Part shown: positions 12,322 through 27,911 of the stretch, one piece after another | How positions within the stretch are numbered: the stretch's first letter is position 1 | Layout: every line of letters starts with the position of its first letter | The notes under the pieces: model-generated | Told to the model about the DNA's origin: nothing | Databases searched by the model: none | What the model saw: the letters and a program-made list of their open reading frames with translations, nothing else | Program-made: the position numbers and the translations under genes | Virus record (IMG/VR): IMGVR_UViG_3300042890_000826 | Location: 1 to 28,617 of that record | Reading direction: 5' to 3' (one strand) | DNA: 28,617 nt | From: a virus

Positions 12322-12885
12322 ATGGCAGATTTAAAATTAGATATACTTGTAATACCTACATATAGTACATTTTCACTTGGAGTGATGGACGCTTCAACCT
12401 ATCCAACAGATCCACCAAATGTTTCTAGTCCATCTATAAAGATAACTGTTCCTGGATTTGGTAATACAATATTACCATTTGATGTGAATGCATTTAATTT
12501 ATACACCACTGCAAATCTTGGGATTACTGAAGTGGGTAGCGAACAACCTCTACCTGATGGAATATATAGATTACGTTACTCTGTATCACCTGCAAATGTA
12601 AATTATGTAGAAAAAACAATAATGCGTACAGAGAAAATACAAGAAAAGTTTAACAGAGCTTTTCTTCAATTAGATTTAATGGAATGCGATGGTGCAATTA
12701 AAACACAATCTAGTGTTACATTAAACTCAATCAACTTTTTTATACAAGGATCAATTGCTGCAGGTAACAACTGTGCAGAATATGAAGCAAATAAATTGTA
12801 TACTCAAGCAGATAATATGCTAAACAACTTTTTAAAATCTAACTGTGGTTGTTCAGGTAACAACTACCAAATAAACTTTAATTAA
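12322..12885 (+). CDS. Conserved structural protein with Cys-rich C-terminus
   Basis: Encodes 187 residues. The N-terminal half is beta-rich (LKLDILVIPTYSTFSLGV, then DGIYRLRYSVSPANVNYVEK). A helical segment (EKIQEKFNRAFLQLDLMECD, about 111-130) follows, and the C-terminus ends with NNFLKSNCGCSGNNYQINFN containing a CGC motif. The layout, with a beta domain followed by helices and a short Cys tail, recalls a protein I associate with crAss-like and metagenomic Bacteroidota phages just after head/neck genes. The exact role is unknown to me. It is followed 2 nt later by a 30-aa Cys-rich peptide gene and forms a compact run with it and the 98-aa gene. Confidence 0.75.
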   Translation: MADLKLDILVIPTYSTFSLGVMDASTYPTDPPNVSSPSIKITVPGFGNTILPFDVNAFNLYTTANLGITEVGSEQPLPDGIYRLRYSVSPANVNYVEKTIMRTEKIQEKFNRAFLQLDLMECDGAIKTQSSVTLNSINFFIQGSIAAGNNCAEYEANKLYTQADNMLNNFLKSNCGCSGNNYQINFN

Positions 12886-12887
12886 TT

Positions 12888-12980
12888 ATGGCACAATGTT
12901 CAAATTGTCAAGCAAATGTGGGGTGTGGATGTCAGTTGAAGAATGGATTATGCGCTACGTGCGCAGCTAAAAAACAATAA
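12888..12980 (+). CDS. 30-aa Cys-rich peptide (zinc-knuckle-like)
   Basis: A 31-codon frame missed by usual length cut-offs. It starts 2 nt after the preceding stop and ends 2 nt before the next ATG, so it fits exactly into the operon. The product begins MAQCSNCQANVGCGC and carries six cysteines in the order CxxC, CxC, CxxC, with a basic tail (AAKKQ). This pattern suggests a tiny zinc-binding module. I recall similar peptides at this position in other Bacteroidota phages, which, with the exact spacing, argues that it is real. Function unknown; it may help fold or cap the neighbouring structural proteins. Confidence 0.72.
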   Translation: MAQCSNCQANVGCGCQLKNGLCATCAAKKQ

Positions 12981-12982
12981 AT

Positions 12983-13279
12983 ATGTTAACACCTAGATTA
13001 ACTAATTGTCCTGAATGTGCAGACATTCCTGATTTATTAAAAAAGATAGATTGTAAATTAGCAGAATATGCTAATGGTCTATATAACAATGTTGTATTTA
13101 TGTTGAATCAAGTTGTTCCTGCTGGAGCAATGATTCAACTTTTGGCGTATAAAACAATTCTTACATACAAAGAATGTAATCCTGATTATTTAGATGATTG
13201 TTGTATGGATAAGATTGTTAGTAAGGTGATAAGATTAACAGTAGGTTGTGACATCACAACTGCATGCAACCCTGATTAA
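12983..13279 (+). CDS. Conserved 98-aa protein with paired cysteines
   Basis: Encodes 98 residues. The N-terminus MLTPRLTNCPECADIPDLLK has a CPEC pair; a helical middle follows (DCKLAEYANGLYNNVVFMLN) with a hydrophobic segment too short and mixed for a membrane span; the C-terminus has several more Cys (KECNPDYLDDCCMDK, VGCDITTACN). It follows the 30-aa Cys peptide by 2 nt and precedes the first fibre gene by 65 nt. Shared Cys richness across three successive small genes hints at a metal- or disulphide-stabilised sub-complex at the base of the fibres, which is inference. Family not named. Confidence 0.75.
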   Translation: MLTPRLTNCPECADIPDLLKKIDCKLAEYANGLYNNVVFMLNQVVPAGAMIQLLAYKTILTYKECNPDYLDDCCMDKIVSKVIRLTVGCDITTACNPD

Positions 13280-13344
13280 GAGGCAAGAGAGTGTAACATG
13301 AGGTAAGATTAATAGAAGACTAACAAAATAAAAATAAATATAAT

Positions 13345-14157
13345 ATGGCTTGTACCGAAACTTTTTTAGATGAATGTGTTAAATATACAGGAGCTAATGC
13401 CCCTTCGTTAGGAATTAATACTAATGATTCTTTATTAGTAGTTGAAGAATCTTTAATTACATCTCTCACCTCTGTATTAGATAATTTATCATTATATGTA
13501 CAAAAATCTGAGTTTTGTTGTTTACTTGAAACATGTACTAGTTCAATTCCAGTAGTAACATTAGCTAGTGATAAAATGCTTCCTTATGCTGTTGTTCCTT
13601 ATTATGGTCCTACTACTGGTTATCCCACTGTAAATGATACATTTGATAGTGAAGGAGTAGGTACAGGATATTGGGCTAGAGTGTTTATGTGTAATGGAGA
13701 TAATGGTACACCAGATTTAAGAGGAAGAGTTCCTGTAGGAGCAACAAACACACCAAGTACTATTGAGTTTCCACCACAAACAAATCCTGGAGTTAATGGT
13801 AATCCTGTATACACTTATGGACTTACACCAGGAAAGAATACAATAACATTAGAATTACCACAAATTCCTGCACATACACATGAAACTACAGTTACAATTA
13901 ATGATCCAGGACATTTTCACAATATAGATGCTCAAAGTTTTAATATTAAGACTTACGATCGACCTAATGGAAGTGGACAGCAAGCAGGAACATCACCTCC
14001 TACTAGTACCGATATGACAGGATTAAAAGGAACACAACCACCAGGAGTACCAGGACAAAATGTTTTTGTTACTAATGATCCTGCTGGACAAGATCAATCC
14101 CATAACAATTATCAACCAGGACTTGCACTTTATTATATTCAATATAGACCAGTATAA
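13345..14157 (+). CDS. Short tail fibre / tail-collar-type protein
   Basis: Encodes 270 residues. The N-terminal module (about 1-60) contains YTGANAPSLGINTND and a helical LTSVLDNLSLYVQKSE segment, likely for attachment and trimerisation. The C-terminal part has phage tail-collar signatures: GDNGTPDLRGRVPVGA (about 118-133), PQIPAHTHE (about 172-180) with a HxH pair, GHFHN (about 190-194) giving a second, and the terminal NNYQPGLALYYIQYRPV. In T4 gp12-like short fibres, His residues of this kind bind metal within a knitted trimer. This is probably a receptor-binding short fibre. The next gene is a free-standing copy of its N-terminal module. Confidence 0.82.
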   Translation: MACTETFLDECVKYTGANAPSLGINTNDSLLVVEESLITSLTSVLDNLSLYVQKSEFCCLLETCTSSIPVVTLASDKMLPYAVVPYYGPTTGYPTVNDTFDSEGVGTGYWARVFMCNGDNGTPDLRGRVPVGATNTPSTIEFPPQTNPGVNGNPVYTYGLTPGKNTITLELPQIPAHTHETTVTINDPGHFHNIDAQSFNIKTYDRPNGSGQQAGTSPPTSTDMTGLKGTQPPGVPGQNVFVTNDPAGQDQSHNNYQPGLALYYIQYRPV

Positions 14158-14159
14158 AT

Positions 14160-14366
14160 ATGTCGCATTACCCACCTATCCCACAAAGAAAATCTTGTAA
14201 CTGTGAAGATCCTTGTATCTCTACAGATGATATTTACTATGCTGGTCCTAATCTTCCTGGTTCAGGAATACAAACAAATACAATATTAACTGAAGCTTTA
14301 GAAATTATGGATAATGAGATTCTTATATTAAAAGAAGCATTGTATAATTTAACTAATACAATTTAA
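14160..14366 (+). CDS. Free-standing fibre-anchor module, 68 aa
   Basis: Encodes 68 residues, 2 nt after the collar-type fibre gene. It begins MSHYPPIPQRKSCNCEDPC, followed by IYYAGPNLPGSGIQTNTILT and a helix EALEIMDNEILILKEALYN. The segment YAGPNLPGSGIQTN parallels YTGANAPSLGINTND in the preceding fibre, and both are followed by a helix with regularly spaced hydrophobic residues. It therefore looks like the fibre's N-terminal anchor/coiled-coil module without a distal domain. It could be a functional adaptor or cap, or a truncated fibre. No function is proven. Confidence 0.7.
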   Translation: MSHYPPIPQRKSCNCEDPCISTDDIYYAGPNLPGSGIQTNTILTEALEIMDNEILILKEALYNLTNTI

Positions 14367-14428
14367 TATTAAAATAGTTAACTTTGTATATAATAAGAAT
14401 ATATATTTTATTACTTAAAATTTAAAAA

Positions 14429-14566
14429 ATGAGAGCAAATTCACAACAAATAGGTCAAAGTCAGAAAGTTAAATTGCTTTCTAATATTTCTAAACAGATA
14501 GAACAATTAATAAAAGTTACAGGTAGAAATATCACAACAACCACTACAACCACCACTGTAGTTTAA
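14429..14566 (+). CDS. 45-aa fibre-anchor peptide ending in poly-Thr
   Basis: A short frame encoding 45 residues. The core QQIGQSQKVKLLSNISKQIE parallels the N-terminus of the next gene product (REIGWGAEENLLSFISKQLG): the IG, LL, S-ISKQ and following hydrophobic spacing are shared. It ends ITTTTTTTTVV, encoded by ACAACAACCACTACAAC, a 17-bp string found again in the Thr linker of the giant tail protein (26586-26602). It thus looks like an anchor module plus the beginning of a linker, then a stop. It has its own A-rich leader. It could be a functional cap or a fibre that lost its distal domains. Confidence 0.6.
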   Translation: MRANSQQIGQSQKVKLLSNISKQIEQLIKVTGRNITTTTTTTTVV

Positions 14567-14585
14567 TTATATAAAATATAAAAAA

Positions 14586-16310
14586 ATGGCAACACCAAAT
14601 AGAGAAATAGGCTGGGGAGCAGAAGAAAATCTTTTATCATTTATTTCTAAACAATTAGGAAATTTAACTAATGTAACATATAACTCAGGTAGTAATAGTA
14701 GTACAGGACCTCAAGGTCCTCAAGGAGTACAAGGTATTCAAGGACCCCAAGGGACTCAAGGTCTAATTGGTATTCAGGGAGAAACAGGTGCAACAGGACC
14801 AACAGGAGCTCAAGGTGTTCAAGGAGATCAAGGATTATTAGGACCTGTTGGACCTGCAGGTTTAAACTGGAAAGGAATATGGACATCAGGAACATCTTAT
14901 GTAGAAGATGATGCAGTAGGTTATAATGGAGCGTCTTGGTTTTGTATATTACCCACATCTGGAACTACAACTCCAGATTTAGATACAACAAACTGGGCAC
15001 TATTAGCTTCACAAGGAGCACAAGGACAAGCAGGATCAAATGGAGCAGTAGGAGCTACAGGTCCAACTGGTGCACAAGGAACTATAGGACTAACAGGACC
15101 TGAAGGACCTCAAGGTGAGCAAGGGGTTCAGGGAGAACAAGGGATTCAAGGCATTAAAGGTGTTAAAGGTGATAAAGGGGATCAAGGAATTCAAGGAATT
15201 CAAGGTGTTCAAGGACCTTCTGGAGTAGATGGTGCTGTAGGTCCTGCTGGATTAGAGTGGCAAGGTGCATGGGCCTCTGGAACATCCTATGTTGCAGATG
15301 ATGCTGTTGGATATGATGGAGCTTCTTGGTTCTGTATACTTCCTACTTCAGAAACAACTCCTCCAGATTTAGATACAACACATTGGGCATTACTAGCTTC
15401 TCAGGGAGCTCAAGGTCAACAAGGAGAACAAGGTGTACCAGGGGAACAAGGGCCTCCAGGTAGTCTTACACCTATAACTGCAAGTGCTCCACTTACAGGT
15501 GGAACTATAACAACAACTGGAACCATAGGTATATCAGCAGCAACAAATCTTGTTGATGGTTACATAACTAAAGAAGCCTTTGTTACATTTACTAATAAAG
15601 AAAACTCTGTAAACAAACAAAACTCATTAGCGGTAGATGGTACAGGAACTAAGTTCCCTACAGTTGACGCGGTAAATTTAGGTATAACTAATTCCAATTA
15701 TTGGACTAAGACAGGGAATGATATACAAAACAACACAACTGGTGGAGTTGTTAAAGTACAAGGTGGAACTGGTGCGTATTATGATGATGCACTTCGAACT
15801 GTTCAAAGTAATGGGACTATTGGTTTCAGAGCGCAAAATGGAGGTAATTTTTATTACCAGTATGGATATGGTTCTTATTCATCAGCTAATACGTTTGGAA
15901 ATGCTAGTGGAGGTGTTCAAATGAGTACAACATCAGGAAACGCTTTTATTTCTAATGTAAGAATTAAATATCTAACAGATCTATCATTAAGTTATGATGA
16001 TAGAACATTAGTAGATAAAGGATATGTAAACAACAGATTAGTAGTTGAAACAGCAGGACCATATCTACTAGGAAATACAGATAGTGGAGGTATTGTTATA
16101 TTCACAGCGTCTACAACACTAACAATACCAACAGGACTTGCAAATGGATTTGAATGTACATTTGTTACCTTGATTGGTGTAACATTAACAGTTGTTTCTA
16201 CAGGTAATACATTAAACAATGCGGCAGGTACAACAATGGCAGGCGGTCTAAGTTTTACATTAAAAAGAATGATAGCAGCAAACACATTCATATCAACAGG
16301 AAACCTATAA
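14586..16310 (+). CDS. Collagen-like tail fibre with two carbohydrate-binding-like modules
   Basis: Encodes 574 residues. Order: an N-terminal anchor (1-35, EENLLSFISKQLGNL); a Gly-X-Y collagen tract (about 42-93); a module from Trp95 to about 146 (WKGIWTSGTSYVEDDAVGY, then ASWFCILPTS and a late Trp); a second collagen tract with GPQGEQGVQGEQG-type repeats; a second module from Trp225 to about 276; a short third collagen tract; then a beta-rich fibre shaft with TDLSLSYDDRTLVDKGYV (about 464-481) and a C-terminal domain. The two Trp/Tyr modules resemble CBM5/12-type sugar-binding domains and match at 46 of 54 residues while their codons have diverged. Collagen repeats are common stalks in phage fibres. 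It probably binds surface polysaccharide. The tip-like gene follows after 2 nt. Confidence 0.85.
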   Translation: MATPNREIGWGAEENLLSFISKQLGNLTNVTYNSGSNSSTGPQGPQGVQGIQGPQGTQGLIGIQGETGATGPTGAQGVQGDQGLLGPVGPAGLNWKGIWTSGTSYVEDDAVGYNGASWFCILPTSGTTTPDLDTTNWALLASQGAQGQAGSNGAVGATGPTGAQGTIGLTGPEGPQGEQGVQGEQGIQGIKGVKGDKGDQGIQGIQGVQGPSGVDGAVGPAGLEWQGAWASGTSYVADDAVGYDGASWFCILPTSETTPPDLDTTHWALLASQGAQGQQGEQGVPGEQGPPGSLTPITASAPLTGGTITTTGTIGISAATNLVDGYITKEAFVTFTNKENSVNKQNSLAVDGTGTKFPTVDAVNLGITNSNYWTKTGNDIQNNTTGGVVKVQGGTGAYYDDALRTVQSNGTIGFRAQNGGNFYYQYGYGSYSSANTFGNASGGVQMSTTSGNAFISNVRIKYLTDLSLSYDDRTLVDKGYVNNRLVVETAGPYLLGNTDSGGIVIFTASTTLTIPTGLANGFECTFVTLIGVTLTVVSTGNTLNNAAGTTMAGGLSFTLKRMIAANTFISTGNL

Positions 16311-16312
16311 TT

Positions 16313-16963
16313 ATGAACAGAACAGCATTTCAAATATACGGGTTGAAAAAAAATGTAATACCTCCAATACCTGAAGGAACAATACAGATTTGCGATCAAG
16401 TATGGACTACAAAGAACCTCGATGTTACTACTTACAGAGATGGTACAGAAATTCCACAAGCAACTACTGATGCAGATTGGATAGCTAAAGGTAATGCAGG
16501 AATAGGTGCCTGGTGTTATTATGCAAACAATTCAGCCAATGGACCTATTTATGGTAAACTTTACAATTGGTATGCAGTAAATGATGCTAGAGGATTAGCA
16601 CCTACTGGCTACCACGTTCCTACTGACGCTGAATGGAGCACTTTAACTAATACTTGTTTAGGAGGAGAGAGTGTTGCTGGTGGAAAAATGAAAACAACTG
16701 GAACAATAGAAGCAGGAACTGGTTTATGGCAAGACCCTAACTCAGGCGCTACCAACTCAAGTGGTTTTTCAGGTTTACCAGGAGGGGTTCGCAGCTCCAG
16801 TGGACCATTCATCAACGTTGGCAGCGTCGGGTTCTGGTGGAGTTCGTCAGAGTCCAATACAACAAACGTATGGGCCCGCTTCATGGCTTACAGCAGCGGC
16901 AATGCTTTCAGACTCAGCGTTAGTAAGATACTCGGTTACTCAGTTCGATTAATAAAAGACTAA
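16313..16963 (+). CDS. FISUMP / C-type-lectin-like adhesin tip protein, likely DGR target
   Basis: Encodes 216 residues. After a short N-terminus (1-22) the protein matches the Fib_succ_major (FISUMP) pattern: QVWTTKNLDVTTYRDG (about 29-44), GKLYNWYAVNDARGLAPTGY (81-100), HVPTDAEW (101-108), then GFSGLPGG and a WWSSSE motif (175-180), ending SVRLIKD. FISUMP domains have a C-type-lectin-like fold and are known in adhesins and DGR targets. Residues 160-209 contain 24 C-ending codons in 50, against 20 in the first 150, and GC rises locally. It starts 2 nt after the collagen fibre stop, so it probably forms or decorates the fibre tip. It lacks an anchor of its own. Confidence 0.85.
   Translation: MNRTAFQIYGLKKNVIPPIPEGTIQICDQVWTTKNLDVTTYRDGTEIPQATTDADWIAKGNAGIGAWCYYANNSANGPIYGKLYNWYAVNDARGLAPTGYHVPTDAEWSTLTNTCLGGESVAGGKMKTTGTIEAGTGLWQDPNSGATNSSGFSGLPGGVRSSSGPFINVGSVGFWWSSSESNTTNVWARFMAYSSGNAFRLSVSKILGYSVRLIKD
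16787..16963 (+). other. Putative DGR variable region (VR) at the 3' end of the lectin-like gene
   Basis: This segment has 86 G/C in 177 bases by hand count (73 of 134 in 16787-16920), against about one third in the first part of the gene. Codons at expected ligand-binding positions are NNC: CGC160, AGC161, TCC162, GTC172, TTC174, TCC181, GCC188, CGC189, TTC190, TAC193, AGC194-195, TTC199, CTC201, AGC202, CTC207 and TAC209. Template AAC codons mutagenised at adenines give exactly NNC. Framework residues (WW, SSSE, SVR) keep other codons. No template repeat or reverse transcriptase lies in the window, so they must be elsewhere if the call is right. Confidence 0.6.
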
Positions 16964-16971
16964 ACAAGTAA

Positions 16972-17052
16972 ATTATATCAATTACTGATAGAATAACATT
17001 AGAAGCAACTCTAGATAATTGGACTATAGTAGATAAAGGAATAACAGCATAA
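16972..17052 (+). pseudogene. Remnant of a tail-fibre C-terminal segment
   Basis: This stop-to-stop stretch lacks a start codon and reads IISITDRITLEATLDNWTIV followed by DKGITA. The ITDRITL...TIVDKG pattern resembles LTDLSLSYDDRTLVDKGYV in the collagen-like fibre upstream (about 463-481). It probably is a leftover of a fibre gene displaced or split when the lectin-like gene was acquired. The match is short, so a chance or separate peptide cannot be excluded. Confidence 0.4.
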
Positions 17053-17077
17053 TAATATAAAAAAAAATCTGAGTTTG

Positions 17078-17109
17078 TTGGTTTTCTTAGATTAAATTCA
17101 GTAATTTTG
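17078..17109 (+). promoter_or_regulatory. Candidate promoter ahead of stacked hairpins
   Basis: TTG (17078-17080), 21 nt, then TAATTTTG (17102-17109), which fits the Bacteroidota -7 TAnnTTTG exactly. Transcription would begin only 10-20 nt before the intrinsic terminator at 17133-17163. The -7 box lies inside the 5' arm and loop of a hairpin. It may drive a very short RNA, feed the HNH gene by read-through, or be a chance match in T-rich DNA. Confidence 0.3.
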
Positions 17110-17132
17110 TTGGTTTAATTACTGAAACTAAG
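17086..17132 (+). other. 15-bp inverted repeat upstream of terminator
   Basis: TTCAGTAATT (17097-17106) and AATTACTGAA (17117-17126) are perfect inverted repeats around a 10-nt loop; CTTAG (17086-17090) and CTAAG (17128-17132) add an outer stem across a 6/1 internal loop. The 11-mer TTTGTTGGTTT occurs at 17074-17084 and again at 17106-17116, the second copy forming the loop. It lies directly before a terminator, so it may be an RNA-stabilising or operator element. Confidence 0.5.
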
Positions 17133-17163
17133 TCCCCAGTATTAAATATGCTGGGGATTTTTT
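17133..17163 (+). terminator. Rho-independent terminator after the adhesin cluster
   Basis: TCCCCAG (17133-17139) pairs with CTGGGGA (17151-17157) around an 11-nt A/T loop, followed directly by TTTTTT (17158-17163). It ends the fibre/lectin transcription unit and lies 16 nt before the HNH endonuclease start. Confidence 0.88.
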
Positions 17164-17178
17164 AATATAATTATAACT

Positions 17179-17799
17179 ATGAAAGAATGTACAAATTGTA
17201 AAATTAAAAAAGAGCTAAATGATTTTGGTAAAAAAGCATCGTCTAAAGATGGTTTAGATGGATATTGTCGTGACTGTAGAAAGGTATATTATAAAAATAA
17301 AAATTATAATAGAAAAGAATACCATACTTTATATAAAAGAGTTATAACAGAGGAACGTAAACTTTATTTAAAAGAATACGGTTTAAAAAATAAACATAAA
17401 TATATTGATAAATATAAAAGTATAAAAATAGATAAAGGAGTAAACGATACAGTTACAATTAGAAGAATAAATAAATTAGTTCACAGAACTTTAAAATATA
17501 AAGATGAAGAGAAACTTAAAAAATCTAAAGATTACTTAGGTTGGACAAAACATTGTTTTATTAAAAAGTTTGGCATTATACCTAAAGACTATCAAATTGA
17601 TCATAAGATACCAGTATCTTGGTTTTTAAAAGATACTCCTGTTAATATAATAAATAATTTAGATAACTTGCAACTATTACATAAAACTGAAAATTTAAAA
17701 AAAAGTAATAAGTTCTGTCATTCTATATCTATTGATTTTTTTAAAGTAGTAAAAAGTTACATTAGTAATTTTTATATAGATCGTGTTACATATTGCTAA
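17179..17799 (+). CDS. HNH homing-type endonuclease
   Basis: Encodes 206 residues. An N-terminal zinc-finger-like part has C4xxC7 and C30xxC33. A Lys/Tyr-rich linker (about 35-95) follows. The C-terminal HNH nuclease has QIDHKIPVSWF (Asp141-His142), NNLDNLQLLHK (about 159-169) and ENLKKSNK (171-178), the usual phage HNH pattern. Such free-standing nucleases nick or cut sites in related phages and spread by repair. The gene is more AT-rich than its neighbours and lies just after a strong terminator, as expected for an inserted selfish gene. Its target may be the neighbouring locus in relatives lacking it. A host-takeover or recombination role is less likely. Confidence 0.85.
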   Translation: MKECTNCKIKKELNDFGKKASSKDGLDGYCRDCRKVYYKNKNYNRKEYHTLYKRVITEERKLYLKEYGLKNKHKYIDKYKSIKIDKGVNDTVTIRRINKLVHRTLKYKDEEKLKKSKDYLGWTKHCFIKKFGIIPKDYQIDHKIPVSWFLKDTPVNIINNLDNLQLLHKTENLKKSNKFCHSISIDFFKVVKSYISNFYIDRVTYC

Positions 17800-17823
17800 A
17801 GATATTCTTGGGGAGTTTTTGTT

Positions 17824-17844
17824 TTATAACTATTTTAGTTATAA
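17824..17844 (+). other. Perfect 9-bp AT-rich hairpin after HNH gene
   Basis: TTATAACTA (17824-17832) pairs with TAGTTATAA (17836-17844) around TTT. The T-rich stretch (GTTTTTGTTTT) lies upstream and no U-tract follows, so it is at best a weak terminator for the HNH gene. The 130-nt gap 17800-17929 also holds the promoter candidate listed separately. Confidence 0.4.
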
Positions 17845-17869
17845 AGAATAACCTGTTTGATTAAATTTA

Positions 17870-17901
17870 TTTGCATAGTAAGAAAACTATTTTTATCTTT
17901 A
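17870..17901 (+). promoter_or_regulatory. Candidate Bacteroidota-type promoter for phosphoesterase operon
   Basis: TTTG (17870-17873), a 20-nt spacer, then TATCTTTA (17894-17901) fits -33/-7 TTTG / TAnnTTTG with the last base A, the same deviation as at 6201-6208. It lies 29 nt before the phosphoesterase ATG in one of the few non-coding gaps. Confidence 0.45.
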
Positions 17902-17929
17902 CCCTAATTTTAAGTAAACTAAACTAAAT

Positions 17930-19189
17930 ATGACTGAGAATCAAGATTTATTATTCAAGTTAGAAGAGTTGTTGAAGCAAAAGAAAAGTAAAAAGTTCTA
18001 TGCAGAGAGATTAGGAATAAGTGAAAATGAAGTGAACGAACTTCTAAAAGAACTTAGAGAGAAAGATGATAGTGAAGCAACTGTGCTTCTATCTAAAACT
18101 AATAATATAGAAGAATGCAGAAAGGTAAATGTTGAGAAGGGTACAATAGAAAGCACTATCACTAGTGACTTTGATCCAAAGGATGATATTGAACTAGCAG
18201 CATTACACAAAATAAATTTAGACAAATACATTATTACCAACTACTGGTCTAAGATGTTACCAAGTGGGAAGTTTACTTCTTCCATCTTTAGTAAGTTAAT
18301 ATCAGATGATGATATTATACGAAAAGACTTAACTGAAGATATAAGAGAAATTTTCTCAACAACAGAAAAGTTTTCTGGAAAAGTGAAATATCGTGACTCT
18401 GATAAAGCATTATTTGTATATATAGCAGATGATCATACTGGGATTGATTTTAAAGACTCTTTATTTGGAAACCCATATACAGGAGATATATATCATAATC
18501 GTTTAAAAGAACTAGCTAAACAGATTATATCATTGGATTATGTAATAGATACATTATTTATAGTTAATCTTGGAGATGAACTAGATGGTTTTAATAAACA
18601 AACTACAAGAGGTGGACATGCATTAGAATCTTTATCAAACAAAGAACAGTTTAATATTTATACTTCTGCTAGAAAAATATTTTATGATACAGTAATGACT
18701 TCTGGTCTTTTTCAAGAGGTTAATATAATAAACATAAATAATTCAAATCACTCAGGTAATGATTACTCATACATAGTGAATAAGGCATTGGAGTTTTATT
18801 TAGATGCTAGATACGATAATATAACAATTGTCAACCAAGATAAGTTTATAGATTCATATGTATGGGGAGAGCATAGTATTTTACTTACACATGGTAAAGA
18901 TGAGAAATATATGAAGTTTGGATTTCCATTGAATCTAAATGAAAAAGTTGATCTATGGTTATTAGATTATTCTAAAAATCTAACAACTAAATACATATCA
19001 ACAGTTAAAGGTGACTTACATGCTTACTCAGTTAATATGGGTAAATCAGGTAGATATATTAATGTACCATCTATATGTGGTGGTTCTAACTGGATAGAAC
19101 ATAATTATGGTTCTTCTAATGCAGGTGCGTTACTAGAAGTAGTTGATAAAACAGATAAAAATATAGTATCGATACCTATCTGGTTTTAA
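17930..19189 (+). CDS. Metallophosphoesterase (calcineurin-like) with N-terminal HTH-like segment
   Basis: Encodes 419 residues. The N-terminus (about 1-45, KKFYAERLGISENEVNELLK) resembles a helix-turn-helix. The catalytic part shows calcineurin-like motifs in order: ADDHTG (Asp167, His169), GDELDG (215-220), NSNHSG (Asn273-His274), LTHGKD (His321) and GDLHAY (Asp362, His364). These residues normally hold two metal ions for phosphodiester or phosphomonoester hydrolysis. The substrate is unknown; DNA ends, nucleotides or a signalling nucleotide are possible. It is odd between fibre and ring genes and is bracketed by two HNH-family nucleases. Its stop overlaps the endonuclease VII-like start (TAATG). 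All motifs look intact, so an active enzyme is expected. Confidence 0.82.
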   Translation: MTENQDLLFKLEELLKQKKSKKFYAERLGISENEVNELLKELREKDDSEATVLLSKTNNIEECRKVNVEKGTIESTITSDFDPKDDIELAALHKINLDKYIITNYWSKMLPSGKFTSSIFSKLISDDDIIRKDLTEDIREIFSTTEKFSGKVKYRDSDKALFVYIADDHTGIDFKDSLFGNPYTGDIYHNRLKELAKQIISLDYVIDTLFIVNLGDELDGFNKQTTRGGHALESLSNKEQFNIYTSARKIFYDTVMTSGLFQEVNIININNSNHSGNDYSYIVNKALEFYLDARYDNITIVNQDKFIDSYVWGEHSILLTHGKDEKYMKFGFPLNLNEKVDLWLLDYSKNLTTKYISTVKGDLHAYSVNMGKSGRYINVPSICGGSNWIEHNYGSSNAGALLEVVDKTDKNIVSIPIWF

Positions 19190-19752
19190 TGGAAAATAAT
19201 AATTTAAAAACTTGTAAAACTTGTAAAACTTGTAAACAGTTGTTACCTATTACTGATTATCACAAAGACCCAAAATCAAAAGATAAATTTTTCTATAGTT
19301 GTAAAAAATGTCACAGTATTTATAGAAAAGAAGTCAGAAGAAAAAATCCTAAAACAGAAGAGCAATTAAAAATACACAGAGAAAAAAATAATCTTTATTA
19401 TCAAAATAATAAAGAAAAAAAAGCAATTTATTCTAAAACAAGAAGAGAAAAGAATACAAAAAGTTATAGAAATACAGCTTATAAATATAAATATGGAATA
19501 TCCATAGATGAGTATGAAGAACTATTATTAAAACAAAATAATAGTTGTGATATATGTAAAATATCTCAGGATGATTTAAATTATAATTTAGTAGTGGATC
19601 ATTGTCATACTACTAAACTAGTAAGAGGATTATTATGTAGAAATTGTAATTTAGCATTAGGATATCTTAAAGATAATATAGAAACTGTAAGTAGCACATT
19701 AAGTTATTTAAATAAATATAAAGAAAATGTCAACACTCAGAAAATTAATTAG
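19189..19752 (+). CDS. Endonuclease VII-like (HNH/His-Me finger) nuclease
   Basis: Encodes 187 residues. The N-terminus has a zinc-finger-like CKTCKTCK run (Cys9, 12, 15) and a second pair CKKC (38-41). The C-terminal core fits recombination endonuclease VII: YGISIDEYEELL (102-113), CDIC (120-123), VVDHCH (135-140) and GLLCRNCN (147-154). In T4 this family resolves branched DNA during packaging; in many phages it is a free-standing mobile nuclease. It is Lys-rich and AT-rich, overlaps the preceding stop by one base and the next gene by 26 nt, and is the only complete gene here ending in TAG (followed at once by TGA). This suggests recent insertion. A 9-bp repeat expands the first Cys motif. 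Confidence 0.85.
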   Translation: MENNNLKTCKTCKTCKQLLPITDYHKDPKSKDKFFYSCKKCHSIYRKEVRRKNPKTEEQLKIHREKNNLYYQNNKEKKAIYSKTRREKNTKSYRNTAYKYKYGISIDEYEELLLKQNNSCDICKISQDDLNYNLVVDHCHTTKLVRGLLCRNCNLALGYLKDNIETVSSTLSYLNKYKENVNTQKIN

Positions 19753-24800: not shown

Positions 24801-27098
24801 TCACTATCGGATTATGGATGCAATAAAGTTCTTCCAGAAGAACAAAAACCAATATCTGTAGTTTCTTATTATGCATCTATAAAGAATATAGCAGTTGGTC
24901 AATGGGGACAAATGTATTCTTATGAAACATTAGATACAGGATTCCAAAGAAGCTTAATTAATATACCAAACAGTGAATCAGAAATCTTTTTTGGTGGTGA
25001 TACATTCATCAGCAGATTTGCATTTAAAACAAAGCTCCCTTTCTTTATAGACAATAGAGTGAATGCTCCTGATGATTCAGATATATTCTTTGATGAGATT
25101 GGTAATGTTGCCTATCCTAAATACTGGCACTCTGCAAGATCTATTTTGATTACTCAAACTGTACAAGCTGTTAGTCTTACAAACTTTATATCTATAAAAG
25201 CACATAACCTTGAGTGTCCAAACAGTCAAGAAAAAACTTTAGGAGGACTTTCAAACTCTGGAAGAACTTTCTACGATGGTAAAATGTATCTATTTGCATA
25301 TGGTATTCCAAACTTTTATTGTGAAACATCTTATAATACAGATCTTAGACAAGCATTTAATAATAAAGAAGGTGATTTCTGGCCTCATGTGAGTACAGAT
25401 ATTCCTGATGATTGGTTACAAGAAAGTAATGTTACAATTCTTCAAGACAATACATATTATTACAATGTAACATTCTCTAAACAGAATAAGGAAAACTTTT
25501 TCTCACACCTTCCTCCAGATTGGGAAGATAAATTATGTTATACAAACTATCCCTTCAGAGCAATATATTCTGAAGCACAAAGTGTTAACGCTGATAATAG
25601 AGTGAACAGTTGGTTAATATATCGTCCTATTGCAGCTTTTGATTTTCCTCAAAATTATGGTAAGCTTGTATCATTAGATGGTATTCAAAACAAAGCTGTA
25701 TTAGCTAGGTTTGAGAATAAAACATTAATGTATAACAACCTCCTTACAATTGATACAAGTAATCCACAAGCTGCGTATGTAGGTAATCCTAATATGTTTA
25801 AAGGAGCCCCTCCTATTGATTTTGCAGAAACAGATCTTGGATATGTAGGAAGTCAAAATAAAATGTTATTGAAGATTCCTCAAGGACAACTAACAGTTGA
25901 TGCTAAGAGAGGACAAGTATTTCTTATACAAGGAACACAGGTGGAAGATTTATCTGCATTTGGTTCTGGAATGAATAGATTCTTTACAGACCATTTAGCT
26001 TTTGAAATACTTAGATATTTTCCAGATCATACAGAACTAATAGATGGTAAAAAAGTATTAATAAAAGGTGTAGATACAGATAACAATTTCAATGGTATAG
26101 GATTACATGGTGTATATGATAGTAAGTTTGATAGAGTGATACTAACTAAGTTAGATTATATTCCATTAAGTTCAGATATCAAATATGATCCTGTAACAAA
26201 AGATTTCTACACAGAAACACCAATAGGCGATGGTGTTTATTCTAGAACAGTTGTAAGTTTAAAAGATTCAGAATATTTCTGTAATAAGTCTTGGACTCTT
26301 TCATTTAATGTAAATACTAAAAGCTGGATCTCTTTTCATAGTTATATTCCTAATTGGTACATAGCAGAAAACAATTTCTTCTATTCTGGTATTAATGGAT
26401 GTTGTGATGATTTTGATTTTATTGCAGGGCCTCTTATTGCTGCATCTTGCACAACATCTACATCAACATCAACAAGCACAACTACTAGCACAACTACTAT
26501 ATTAAATTGTTCATTTATTTTAAATGCTGAAGAAATAACTAGCACAACAACCACCACTTCTACTAGTACAACTTCAACATCATCAACAACAACCACTACA
26601 ACTACTGCAGATCCTTGTGCTGCTTACACAATAGGTCAATCAGCTTTAGGCGGTATCATTGCTTATATTTTAAAACCAGGTGATCCTGGATATGTACCAG
26701 GAGAGTGTCATGGGCTTGTAGCTTCTCCTTCTGAATTTAATCAAGCTGTTTGGGGATGCGAGGGATTAGATATTTTTCAAGCAGAAGGTTCTGCACTAGG
26801 AACAGGATTATCAAACAGTATAGCTATAGAAAATGGTTGTCCAAATTCAGGCGCAGCAGCAGTTTCTTGTTTAGCAAAAGTATACGGAATTTATAACGAT
26901 TGGTATTTACCAAGTCAAGGTGAATTATATAAATTATATTTAAATAGAGTTGCAATTGGAGGGTTTTCTTCTGTAGATTATTGGAGTTCTACTCAACAAG
27001 ATAGCACACGTGCATATATGATTCCTTTTAGCAACGGAATTGCTGTTACACAAGTGAAGAGTCAGGCAGCTCAATTTCGTCCTATAAGATCTTTTTAA
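21882..27098 (+). CDS. Giant tail-tube / stabilization protein with C-terminal lectin-like cassette
   Basis: Encodes 1738 residues. Residues 1 to about 1520 look like the conserved tail 'stabilization' or tail-hub protein of crAss-like phages: IKQELNSANIGLNLDNTLNQ near the start, TYALNAALENFD, EIYWTDGFNPRRYLD, and later WISFHSYIPNWYIAENNFFY (about 1484-1503). A Thr/Ser linker (about 1523-1545), a short bridge, a second linker (about 1553-1577) and a domain with DWYLPSQGELYKLY, WSSTQ and AQFRPIRSF follow; this last part resembles DUF1566/Lcl-type C-type-lectin-like domains. In relatives, as I recall, the WISFHSY region runs on into sequence that here lies in the frame at 27911. The gene therefore seems interrupted by adhesin cassettes. 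Confidence 0.82.
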   Translation: MAEEQSQGNIKQELNSANIGLNLDNTLNQIKQGTLTYALNAALENFDSSSVNYQNEQGNELCLQFPEEYVLIGTHFINEQSKHIFFLTNPNTGDSEIGYMDNNDCVYNTLVSALCLNFNVDHPIHKTVHRITNCTTEIYWTDGFNPRRYLDINDVPYLLAPNSDLCNPTYTTELDCNQLKLQPNFNIPNLSIVDITTGGSLLAGTYQFAAQYTDASGNPYTSYYSVTNPTPIANPQLTTPNFNYQVGKSIVVNVSNLDATGQFQYFNLAVIKTVNTVTSVELIGTYFIDETSLNITYTGQMNDNIRLSINDIFEKFPYYDVAEDLTAVQDVLVWDGLTSIDRINYQSIANQINLLWETYRIPATENYADELNATNLRGYLRDEVYAFEIVFLLNNGKQTDGFHIPGRKAISTDLVPVSPTNADFIGEPDPETNTSPYWKIYNTADAIGESPSKSLAIDYKGPWEYGRFAYWESTELYPCNEAVWGELSGKPIRHYKFPDIAVSPAFESKLFTSSGSMVMGNDAVFPIGVRIGSTQIATLIETSNLTQEQKDDIVAYKIVRGDRGTNKSIVAKGILRNVGKYNREGTDYYYPNYPYNDLREDPFILDKSNAFTANAAIASTANDTCRSFTITAIEDSTYEYSDCSSEILIVETITAGETVTFCAINLPIITFGKACMYANTYDRYSVSLTGFLTIKVISFIQPFGLTPDESSPNCDFCNDNPTLCPNAPITTGTFDAQITVITDVSGTIYIRSITPPYVAGGNDAPGEITIEKISSVGYGVCTPLPLKGFEEDGSKYRHVFNSPETSFGQPFLGDYLKLENVIFGAGRAHYTQVKNNAMYRLLTKEAQQDALESSSNIASNPFNATALFTAYQSYLTIYVNGITRRNYAYSYNSIADYNYNDIIENNLGIKQRPLDIARYIIPGVQSVGDNHVVNNWNRESSVYLKTKESITPLPFPDKTPSIAPGGLSDESRFSLSDYGCNKVLPEEQKPISVVSYYASIKNIAVGQWGQMYSYETLDTGFQRSLINIPNSESEIFFGGDTFISRFAFKTKLPFFIDNRVNAPDDSDIFFDEIGNVAYPKYWHSARSILITQTVQAVSLTNFISIKAHNLECPNSQEKTLGGLSNSGRTFYDGKMYLFAYGIPNFYCETSYNTDLRQAFNNKEGDFWPHVSTDIPDDWLQESNVTILQDNTYYYNVTFSKQNKENFFSHLPPDWEDKLCYTNYPFRAIYSEAQSVNADNRVNSWLIYRPIAAFDFPQNYGKLVSLDGIQNKAVLARFENKTLMYNNLLTIDTSNPQAAYVGNPNMFKGAPPIDFAETDLGYVGSQNKMLLKIPQGQLTVDAKRGQVFLIQGTQVEDLSAFGSGMNRFFTDHLAFEILRYFPDHTELIDGKKVLIKGVDTDNNFNGIGLHGVYDSKFDRVILTKLDYIPLSSDIKYDPVTKDFYTETPIGDGVYSRTVVSLKDSEYFCNKSWTLSFNVNTKSWISFHSYIPNWYIAENNFFYSGINGCCDDFDFIAGPLIAASCTTSTSTSTSTTTSTTTILNCSFILNAEEITSTTTTTSTSTTSTSSTTTTTTTADPCAAYTIGQSALGGIIAYILKPGDPGYVPGECHGLVASPSEFNQAVWGCEGLDIFQAEGSALGTGLSNSIAIENGCPNSGAAAVSCLAKVYGIYNDWYLPSQGELYKLYLNRVAIGGFSSVDYWSSTQQDSTRAYMIPFSNGIAVTQVKSQAAQFRPIRSF

Positions 27099-27112
27099 TA
27101 AAAAAAAAAATA

Positions 27113-27156
27113 AAAAATATATAATAATGACAGTATTAATGACATTATCAGGAGTA
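27113..27156 (+). repeat. 44-bp direct repeat, left copy
   Basis: Bases 27113-27156 match 27868-27911 at 43 of 44 positions (one G/A difference at 27141). The repeat covers the A/T-rich leader, start codon and first ten codons of the 244-aa gene. The copies are 755 bp apart and flank that gene, so recombination between them would remove it cleanly. Confidence 0.9.
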
Positions 27157-27861
27157 GGAAGTGATGCAGGTCCATTGTTTGATTTATACGCAAGTCCTGA
27201 TGGCATAACTTTTACAACAATTGTATTAGGTATAAATAAAACAGTACTAGAAGCAGGATATACATCAACTGTTCCAGATGGCACAACAAAAATTAAAGTA
27301 ACTTCTGCAGGTTCATCATCATGTATTAATTCCTATGTTGCAACAATTGGTGTAACACCATCAACTAGTACATCAACATCAACATCTACATCAACATCAA
27401 CATCAACATCAACATCTACATCAACATCCACAAGCACTAGTTCTACATCAACTAGTACAACATCAACATCATCATCAACTACTACAACTACTACTACTGC
27501 AGCTCCTGTTAATTCTGTAGAATGGTCTGAGGAACCATATGGAGTAGGAGGAGACCCTTCAGGAGGATTTTACTATATAAACGGAACTGTTGAAATAATA
27601 GGTGACCCTGTTACTTTTAGAGCTTTTGTAAGTATACCAGATAATGCTGGACCTGGGTCTTTTTCAGTTAATATGTGGGTAGGAGCTGCAACTCCAGCAA
27701 CAGAGAGATATGTAGAGATTGAAAGACCTCGTGATATTAATCATGAAGCATATTCAACAAGTTTTACGCTTCCTGCAGGTACTTATAATTTTGAAGTACT
27801 AAATAGTTGGAATGGAACAGGAAGTGGAGGATCAGGTGGTATAGTATGGACACAACCATAA
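27127..27861 (+). CDS. Adhesin cassette: beta-domain, Thr/Ser linker, beta-domain
   Basis: Encodes 244 residues. Residues 1-78 form a small beta domain (GPLFDLYASPDG, NKTVLEAGYTSTVPDGTTKI). Residues 79-125 are almost only Ser and Thr, encoded by ACATCA-type hexamers and ACT/ACA runs. Residues 126-244 are a second beta-rich domain (VEWSEEPYGVGGDPSGG, TFRAFVSIPDN, PAGTYNFEVLNSWNG) with aromatic residues, plausibly ligand-binding. The N-terminal domain resembles that of the following frame. There is no signal peptide or enzyme motif. The gene lies between the 44-bp repeats and interrupts the conserved tail-protein sequence. It probably encodes an exchangeable tail-tip adhesin. The linker length may vary by slippage. 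Confidence 0.75.
   Translation: MTVLMTLSGVGSDAGPLFDLYASPDGITFTTIVLGINKTVLEAGYTSTVPDGTTKIKVTSAGSSSCINSYVATIGVTPSTSTSTSTSTSTSTSTSTSTSTSTSTSSTSTSTTSTSSSTTTTTTTAAPVNSVEWSEEPYGVGGDPSGGFYYINGTVEIIGDPVTFRAFVSIPDNAGPGSFSVNMWVGAATPATERYVEIERPRDINHEAYSTSFTLPAGTYNFEVLNSWNGTGSGGSGGIVWTQP
27370..27429 (+). repeat. Hexanucleotide repeat tract in Ser/Thr linker
   Basis: Ten consecutive ACATCN units encode alternating Thr-Ser. The pattern is two 30-bp super-repeats (27370-27399 and 27400-27429) differing only at the last base, pointing to a recent duplication. Units of six keep the frame, so length changes alter only linker length. Confidence 0.88.
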
Positions 27862-27867
27862 TAAACT

Positions 27868-27911
27868 AAAAATATATAATAATGACAGTATTAATAACAT
27901 TATCAGGAGTA
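27868..27911 (+). repeat. 44-bp direct repeat, right copy
   Basis: Partner of the repeat at 27113-27156 (43 of 44 identical). Its start codon now opens only a 13-codon frame, and its last base is the A of the ATG that opens the next long frame. Confidence 0.9.

Follow-up and report, generated by a model that had tools for sequence, protein, structure and literature searches.

The 3′ end of a fibre-tip gene in a crAss-like phage raises the question of whether a diversity-generating retroelement (DGR) has written it and, if so, where the template repeat (TR) and reverse transcriptase (RT) reside. The window analysed here comprises an entire IMG/VR record, 28,617 bp long. Its genes for a terminase, a P22-like portal protein, a major capsid protein and a crAss muzzle protein lie in that order, and these crAss-type proteins in syntenic arrangement place the phage in Crassvirales. 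The muzzle protein is recognized by Pfam crAss_MUZ (E=2e-34) and the terminase and major head protein by PHROG, and terL matches crAss-like phages.

A GC-rich 3′ end in a FISUMP tip gene

The gene in question (16313-16963, plus strand) is an open reading frame for a 216-aa FISUMP (Fib_succ_major) tip protein (Pfam PF09603, E=2.6e-40, residues 24-215). It begins 2 nt past the end of a collagen-like tail fibre gene (14586-16310, plus strand; Pfam Collagen, E=1.6e-23; PHROG 5073 tail fiber, E=1e-74), whose product is probably the stalk carrying the FISUMP tip. The tip would then be expected to take part in host binding. The initial annotation, made from the letters of the sequence, had placed its variable codons on the ligand-binding surface of a lectin fold, which we could not confirm: the AlphaFold model of the tip protein is of moderate quality (pLDDT 69.5), a Foldseek search of that model against the PDB returned nothing at E<=0.001, and a sequence search of the PDB was uninformative.

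The same annotation had described the 3′ end of the gene as GC-rich in an AT-rich genome, and this holds on measurement: GC content is 48.6% over 16787-16963 and 54.5% over 16787-16920, compared with 40.3% in the rest of the gene and 33.4% in the window. Codons 160-209 contain 24 C-ending codons out of 50, as first counted, and the upstream part contains 20 in 159 (codons 1-159) rather than 20 in 150. C-ending codons make up 9.3% of the 8,835 gene codons in the window, no other 50-codon stretch holds more than 16, and none of 20,000 within-gene shuffles attained 24/50. When only C/T-ending codons are considered, a restriction that controls most amino-acid effects, C accounts for 24/34 in the variable stretch versus 20/82 upstream (p=4e-6).

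The C-terminus of the window's muzzle protein (26600-27098) bears an Lcl_C (DUF1566-like) domain with a YWSST motif related to FISUMP. This domain was considered as a second variable region and rejected, its C-ending codons numbering only 3/60, without excess.

Substitutions concentrated at template adenines

We collected 78 related loci from viral contigs and aligned the last part of their FISUMP genes. In the aligned variable regions (VRs), the variable codons have a fixed third base, mostly C, and vary at the other two. In the part of the gene upstream of the VR, most differences between pairs fall on third positions, the pattern of ordinary drift, and within the VR this order reverses; for the window and the relative L014, differences at the three codon positions are 0.23/0.19/0.40 upstream and 0.38/0.46/0.12 in the VR. 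An upstream comparison of L006 with L014 was misaligned by an indel and set aside in favour of aligned values.

The template inferred from the alignment reads AAC AAC AAT GGA ACA TTC AAC AAC ATT GGC AAC AAC GGT AAC TGG TGG AGT TCG TCA GAG and onward. The window VR (codons 160-209; 16790-16939, plus strand) differs from it at 33/65 template adenines and 6/85 other positions (p=1e-9), a comparison in which the inferred TR derives partly from the tested data. The TR of a Flavobacterium chromosome (L090) provides an independent test: the window VR differs from it at 35/65 adenines and 9/85 other positions (p=7e-9), and third positions differ at 4/41 sites in the VR versus 61/104 upstream (p=3e-8). 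With these 9/85 non-A differences (8 over the 144-nt comparison), L090 carries the nearest TR recovered for the window. The window VR therefore departs from its template almost only at template adenines, and the proposed adenine mutagenesis of AAC codons to NNC is borne out by A-specific change from AAC-rich codons both in the aligned relatives and against the bacterial TR. The conserved third bases and A-confined change argue that 16790-16939 is a genuine, DGR-written VR in the C-terminal part of the phage's receptor-binding tip protein.

Two segments frame the variable codons. The invariant framework TGGTGGAGTTCGTCAGAG (WWSSSE; 16835-16852, plus strand) reads the same in several phage VRs and in the chromosomal TR of Flavobacterium. 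The gene closes with a phage-type 3′ tail (SVRLIKD-stop; 16940-16963, plus strand), which carries GTAAGATTAATAAAAGAC; the host-type tail GTGCGTTGCCTCAGGGATT, common to bacterial VR and TR, is missing here, and the tail expected in the window's cognate TR is GTAAGATTAATAAAAGA.

Turnover of the variable region

L012 and L021 are syntenic phage orthologues whose differences by codon position are 15/9/48 of 127 codons upstream and 17/19/6 of 50 in the VR (p=1e-8 and 4e-4), a reversal indicating that their VRs were, by this measure, rewritten after the phage lineages split. More generally, divergence at upstream synonymous sites far exceeds that at VR framework sites, which argues that the VRs are younger than the genes that carry them.

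The relative L001, 99.6% identical to the window, differs from it over ~12580-17815 (~5.2 kb) only at codons 171-172 (16823-16828, plus strand), which read AGC GTC in the window and AAC TAC in L001. The three clustered changes all fall at template-A positions; both versions fit an AAC AAC template, and neither is derivable from the other by A-change alone. A full retrohoming event would have left a longer tract, and the difference within this single pair could be an assembly of mixed variants. Four samples (L006-L009) have identical VRs despite flanking SNPs, which speaks against frequent activity; L002 is likewise without VR change.

Among relatives, FISUMP genes form a gradient from fresh signatures (non-A 3/85 in L006 and L014) through a decayed one (26/85 in L015) to none. 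The same VR family ends unrelated carrier proteins, one of 877 aa in L014, which has a different terminase type, and one of 329 aa in L003; no RT was found in the available sequence of either.

Templates in Bacteroidota chromosomes

The target domain of the tip gene, Pfam FISUMP, is also that of the bacterial DGRs identified here, which belong to the type of bacteria that crAss-like phages infect. Flavobacterium L090 and L105 have a complete cassette consisting of a FISUMP target, Avd (Pfam bAvd), TR and RT (GNLTSQ, YVDD), adjoining pyruvate dehydrogenase genes (names read from translations), and the VR of this Flavobacterium cassette departs from its TR at 28/65 adenines and 1/85 other positions. 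A second TR (L104), in a metagenome-assembled genome labelled Chryseobacterium gleum, is chromosomal as well, lying among lptD, arginase and spermidine synthase genes, and the L104 target, too, combines a collagen stalk with a FISUMP tip. In L254, grouped with L104 under this genome label, the chromosomal DGR target (17006-18754) shows this architecture, which is also that of the phage fibre and tip genes.

One phage VR is near such a bacterial TR: the L012 VR differs from the L104 chromosomal TR at 28/68 adenines and 3/82 other positions, nearly as small a distance as that of the L104 bacterium's own VR (29/68 and 1/82). Upstream, by contrast, the two genes have diverged widely, the L012 and L104 parts differing at 65/127 third positions. 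The match between the L012 VR and the L104 TR ends at GGGTTCTCTGTTAG, short of the bacterial tail. The bacterial 3′ sequence common to VR and TR, in which the initiation site would be expected, is missing from the phage, and the searches recovered no TR exactly cognate to the window; in samples of ~400 genomes each from the Flavobacterium family and class, and in samples from two further groups, all matches end before the phage-type tail. Because TR sequences are conserved across bacteria, a phage TR, if there is any, could resemble bacterial ones.

Search for DGR machinery in the phage and its relatives

An RVT_1 search found no RT in the window or in 50 whole relative phage records; as a positive control, it detected RTs in 10/15 TR- or VR-bearing bacterial genomes. 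The BPP-1 Brt protein found no relative in 37 phage records, and host DGR RT proteins used as queries detected the controls and no phage record above noise. The repeats of the window include no TR, so that the 28.6-kb fragment contains neither a TR nor a DGR RT (RVT_1, GxxxSQ, YxDD).

A TR search of 35 whole relative records returned FISUMP genes and short tail matches only, and a small-word search of six phage records gave no TR. The TR-specific pattern AACTGGTGGAGNTCNNCNGARNAC is matched by none of 2.9 million viral contigs; its 27 matches among bacterial genomes include many Bacteroidota TRs or VRs. Five TR patterns, drawn from several parts of the VR, gave no TR over IMG/VR viral contigs; those demanding AAC before WW may miss a TR with another codon there, and patterns from elsewhere in the VR were also negative. 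Matches to a degenerate TR pattern were the phage's own VR contigs and L087, the latter rejected because it matches by chance within A-rich, low-complexity DNA. Viral RT loci checked for a TR of the window family held none close, and named phages gave only distant FISUMP matches by tblastn and none by DNA search.

Three phages of the same genus by structural proteins (L015, L039 and L054; up to 97% identical; 113-115 kb) have overlapping contig ends, as does the more distant L057, the set spanning about 113-122 kb; the overlap suggests that all four genomes are probably complete. L015, L039 and L054 have neither RT nor TR. Since the VR signature in the end-overlapping same-genus genomes is decayed or absent, the absence of a DGR from them may be a secondary state. 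The phage records with fresh VRs, up to 84 kb, and L002 (19 kb) also have neither RT nor TR. Among these are the syntenic L012 (84 kb) and L021 (40 kb), which both have fresh VRs and no RT; L012 continues for 66 kb downstream of the target, and L021 covers 33 kb upstream of it. The initial annotation had supposed a near-identical template copy of 16787-16963 beside a DGR-type RT encoded elsewhere in the phage genome. No such copy turned up in the 28.6-kb record or the relatives searched, and the phage-encoded RT finds no support in the 50 records screened for RT, the 35 screened for TR or the end-overlapping relatives.

Source of the variable region

We consider it probable, though far from certain, that the source of the tip VR is a chromosomal DGR of host type, acting in trans or contributing sequence by recombination, and that the phage lineage itself lacks the machinery. 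Template adenines were randomized during copying, turning AAC codons into NNC in the phage VR, and the template belongs to a family that is found with Avd and RT in chromosomes of Bacteroidota, where FISUMP surface proteins are encoded alongside; the crAss-like lineage seems to have no DGR machinery of its own. During infection the host DGR might target the phage gene in trans; alternatively, host VR, TR or cDNA sequence might enter that gene by recombination, with conserved framework blocks as the boundaries. Since the expected initiation site is missing from the phage, recombination would be favoured over classical retrohoming by known host TRs. Applied to the window, this model would have the phage itself without an RT and its own VR derived from a host, with transfer presumably by one of these routes; the record is a 28.6-kb fragment, and an accessory RT in this individual phage would be compatible with the data. 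A broader proposal, that several unrelated Bacteroidota phages without their own DGR are diversified by a host DGR in trans, for example when mutagenized host cDNA recombines into the phage VR by way of framework blocks common to both, is tentative and rather doubtful. Such recombination would not depend on an initiation site in the phage, and short tracts like that at codons 171-172 could result from it.

Two alternatives would keep the DGR within the phage lineage. The TR and RT might lie in the part of the genome outside the 28.6-kb record and act in cis, as C-type-lectin tail targets with a DGR do occur in other crAss-like groups (PMC7290462, PMC11054128, PMC12386605); the near absence of non-A change from the window VR agrees with this, and the tail change GTA AGA to GTT CGA would fit a TR with a phage-type tail. 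We nevertheless regard it as unlikely: cassettes usually adjoin their target, yet there is no RT or TR in the 28.6 kb around this one, in L002, in fresh-VR records <=84 kb or in the end-overlapping same-genus genomes, nor did the five patterns yield a TR in IMG/VR. If instead an ancestral phage DGR had been lost, the VR would be an inherited, slowly decaying relic, a reading in line with the gradient from fresh to decayed to none among relatives, with the VRs of L006-L009 being identical across four samples and with the description of crass genomes that contain DGR fragments only (PMC11054128). This we judge more improbable still, for the VRs of L012 and L021 were rewritten after the split although neither record has an RT, and VR framework sites have diverged much less than upstream synonymous sites, so that the VRs are younger than their genes.

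An origin of the stretch without a DGR would invoke positive selection, import of DNA from a GC-rich source or biased codon use; a few selected changes could separate L001 from the window, and tail-gene recombination is common in phages. Selection or drift, however, gives neither conserved third bases with randomized first and second bases nor confinement to template adenines, which makes an origin other than a DGR very improbable.

Relation to known DGRs

Like the Bordetella phage BPP-1 DGR (mtd/TR/brt), the window has an A-specific VR at the C-terminus of a receptor-binding tail protein; unlike in BPP-1, where TR and RT lie beside the target, none was found here, and the target is FISUMP rather than Mtd. 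The chromosomal FISUMP DGRs of Bacteroidota (L090/L105; L104/L254) share the target domain and the template family with the phage, the L104 target being collagen-stalked too, but they differ in having cellular targets, an SVRCLRD tail and a cassette (FISUMP, Avd, TR and RT in L090), whereas the phage has SVRLIKD and no cassette. DGRs of crAss-like phages (crAssphage LMMB, PMC7290462; crAssE-Sib, PMC11054128; the Zeta group, PMC12386605) resemble the present case in belonging to Crassvirales and in having a hypervariable C-terminal tip on a tail protein, but there, at least where the cassette is complete, RT and TR are encoded next to the target. Viral contigs in which a DGR RT lies close to a FISUMP target (L155-L158, L171, L173-L178, L181, L182, L189) are distant from the window group; those from L171 onward are cassettes in IMG/VR that likewise combine a FISUMP target with TR and RT in viral contigs, and differ from the window group in showing 30-39% amino-acid identity in FISUMP and 60-75% nucleotide identity in the TR.

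DGRs are normally found and counted through their RT, as in a survey that looked for imperfect repeats with an RT gene no more than 1 kb away (PMC8144416), and VRs without an RT would escape such searches. RT-less crass genomes with conserved targets have been mentioned as lacking or having lost a DGR, not as carriers of host-templated VRs, and a small literature survey found no report of host-templated VRs in RT-less phages. If a host-side source is correct, a bacterial surface-diversification system would also feed diversity to the bacterium's own predators, coupling host and phage receptor evolution.

Neighbouring genes of the tail module

An intergenic segment at 13302-13345 (plus strand), directly upstream of the tail-collar gene, resembles the 3′ end of a FISUMP gene with its downstream spacer and is likely a remnant of a second such gene. 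In L005, L006 and L022 a FISUMP gene sits at the matching site; in the window the tip gene seems to have disappeared from there and to occupy the position after the fibre gene.

Shortly beyond the tip gene on its downstream side, endonuclease VII/HNH-type genes at 17179-17799 and 19189-19752 flank a gene at 17930-19189 and are possibly a pair of homing endonucleases within a variable tail module. Further along, a 52-nt direct repeat (27105-27156 and 27860-27911; 92% identical) has one copy at the start of a Ser/Thr-repeat gene (27127-27861) and the other just past its end, which suggests a tandem duplication.
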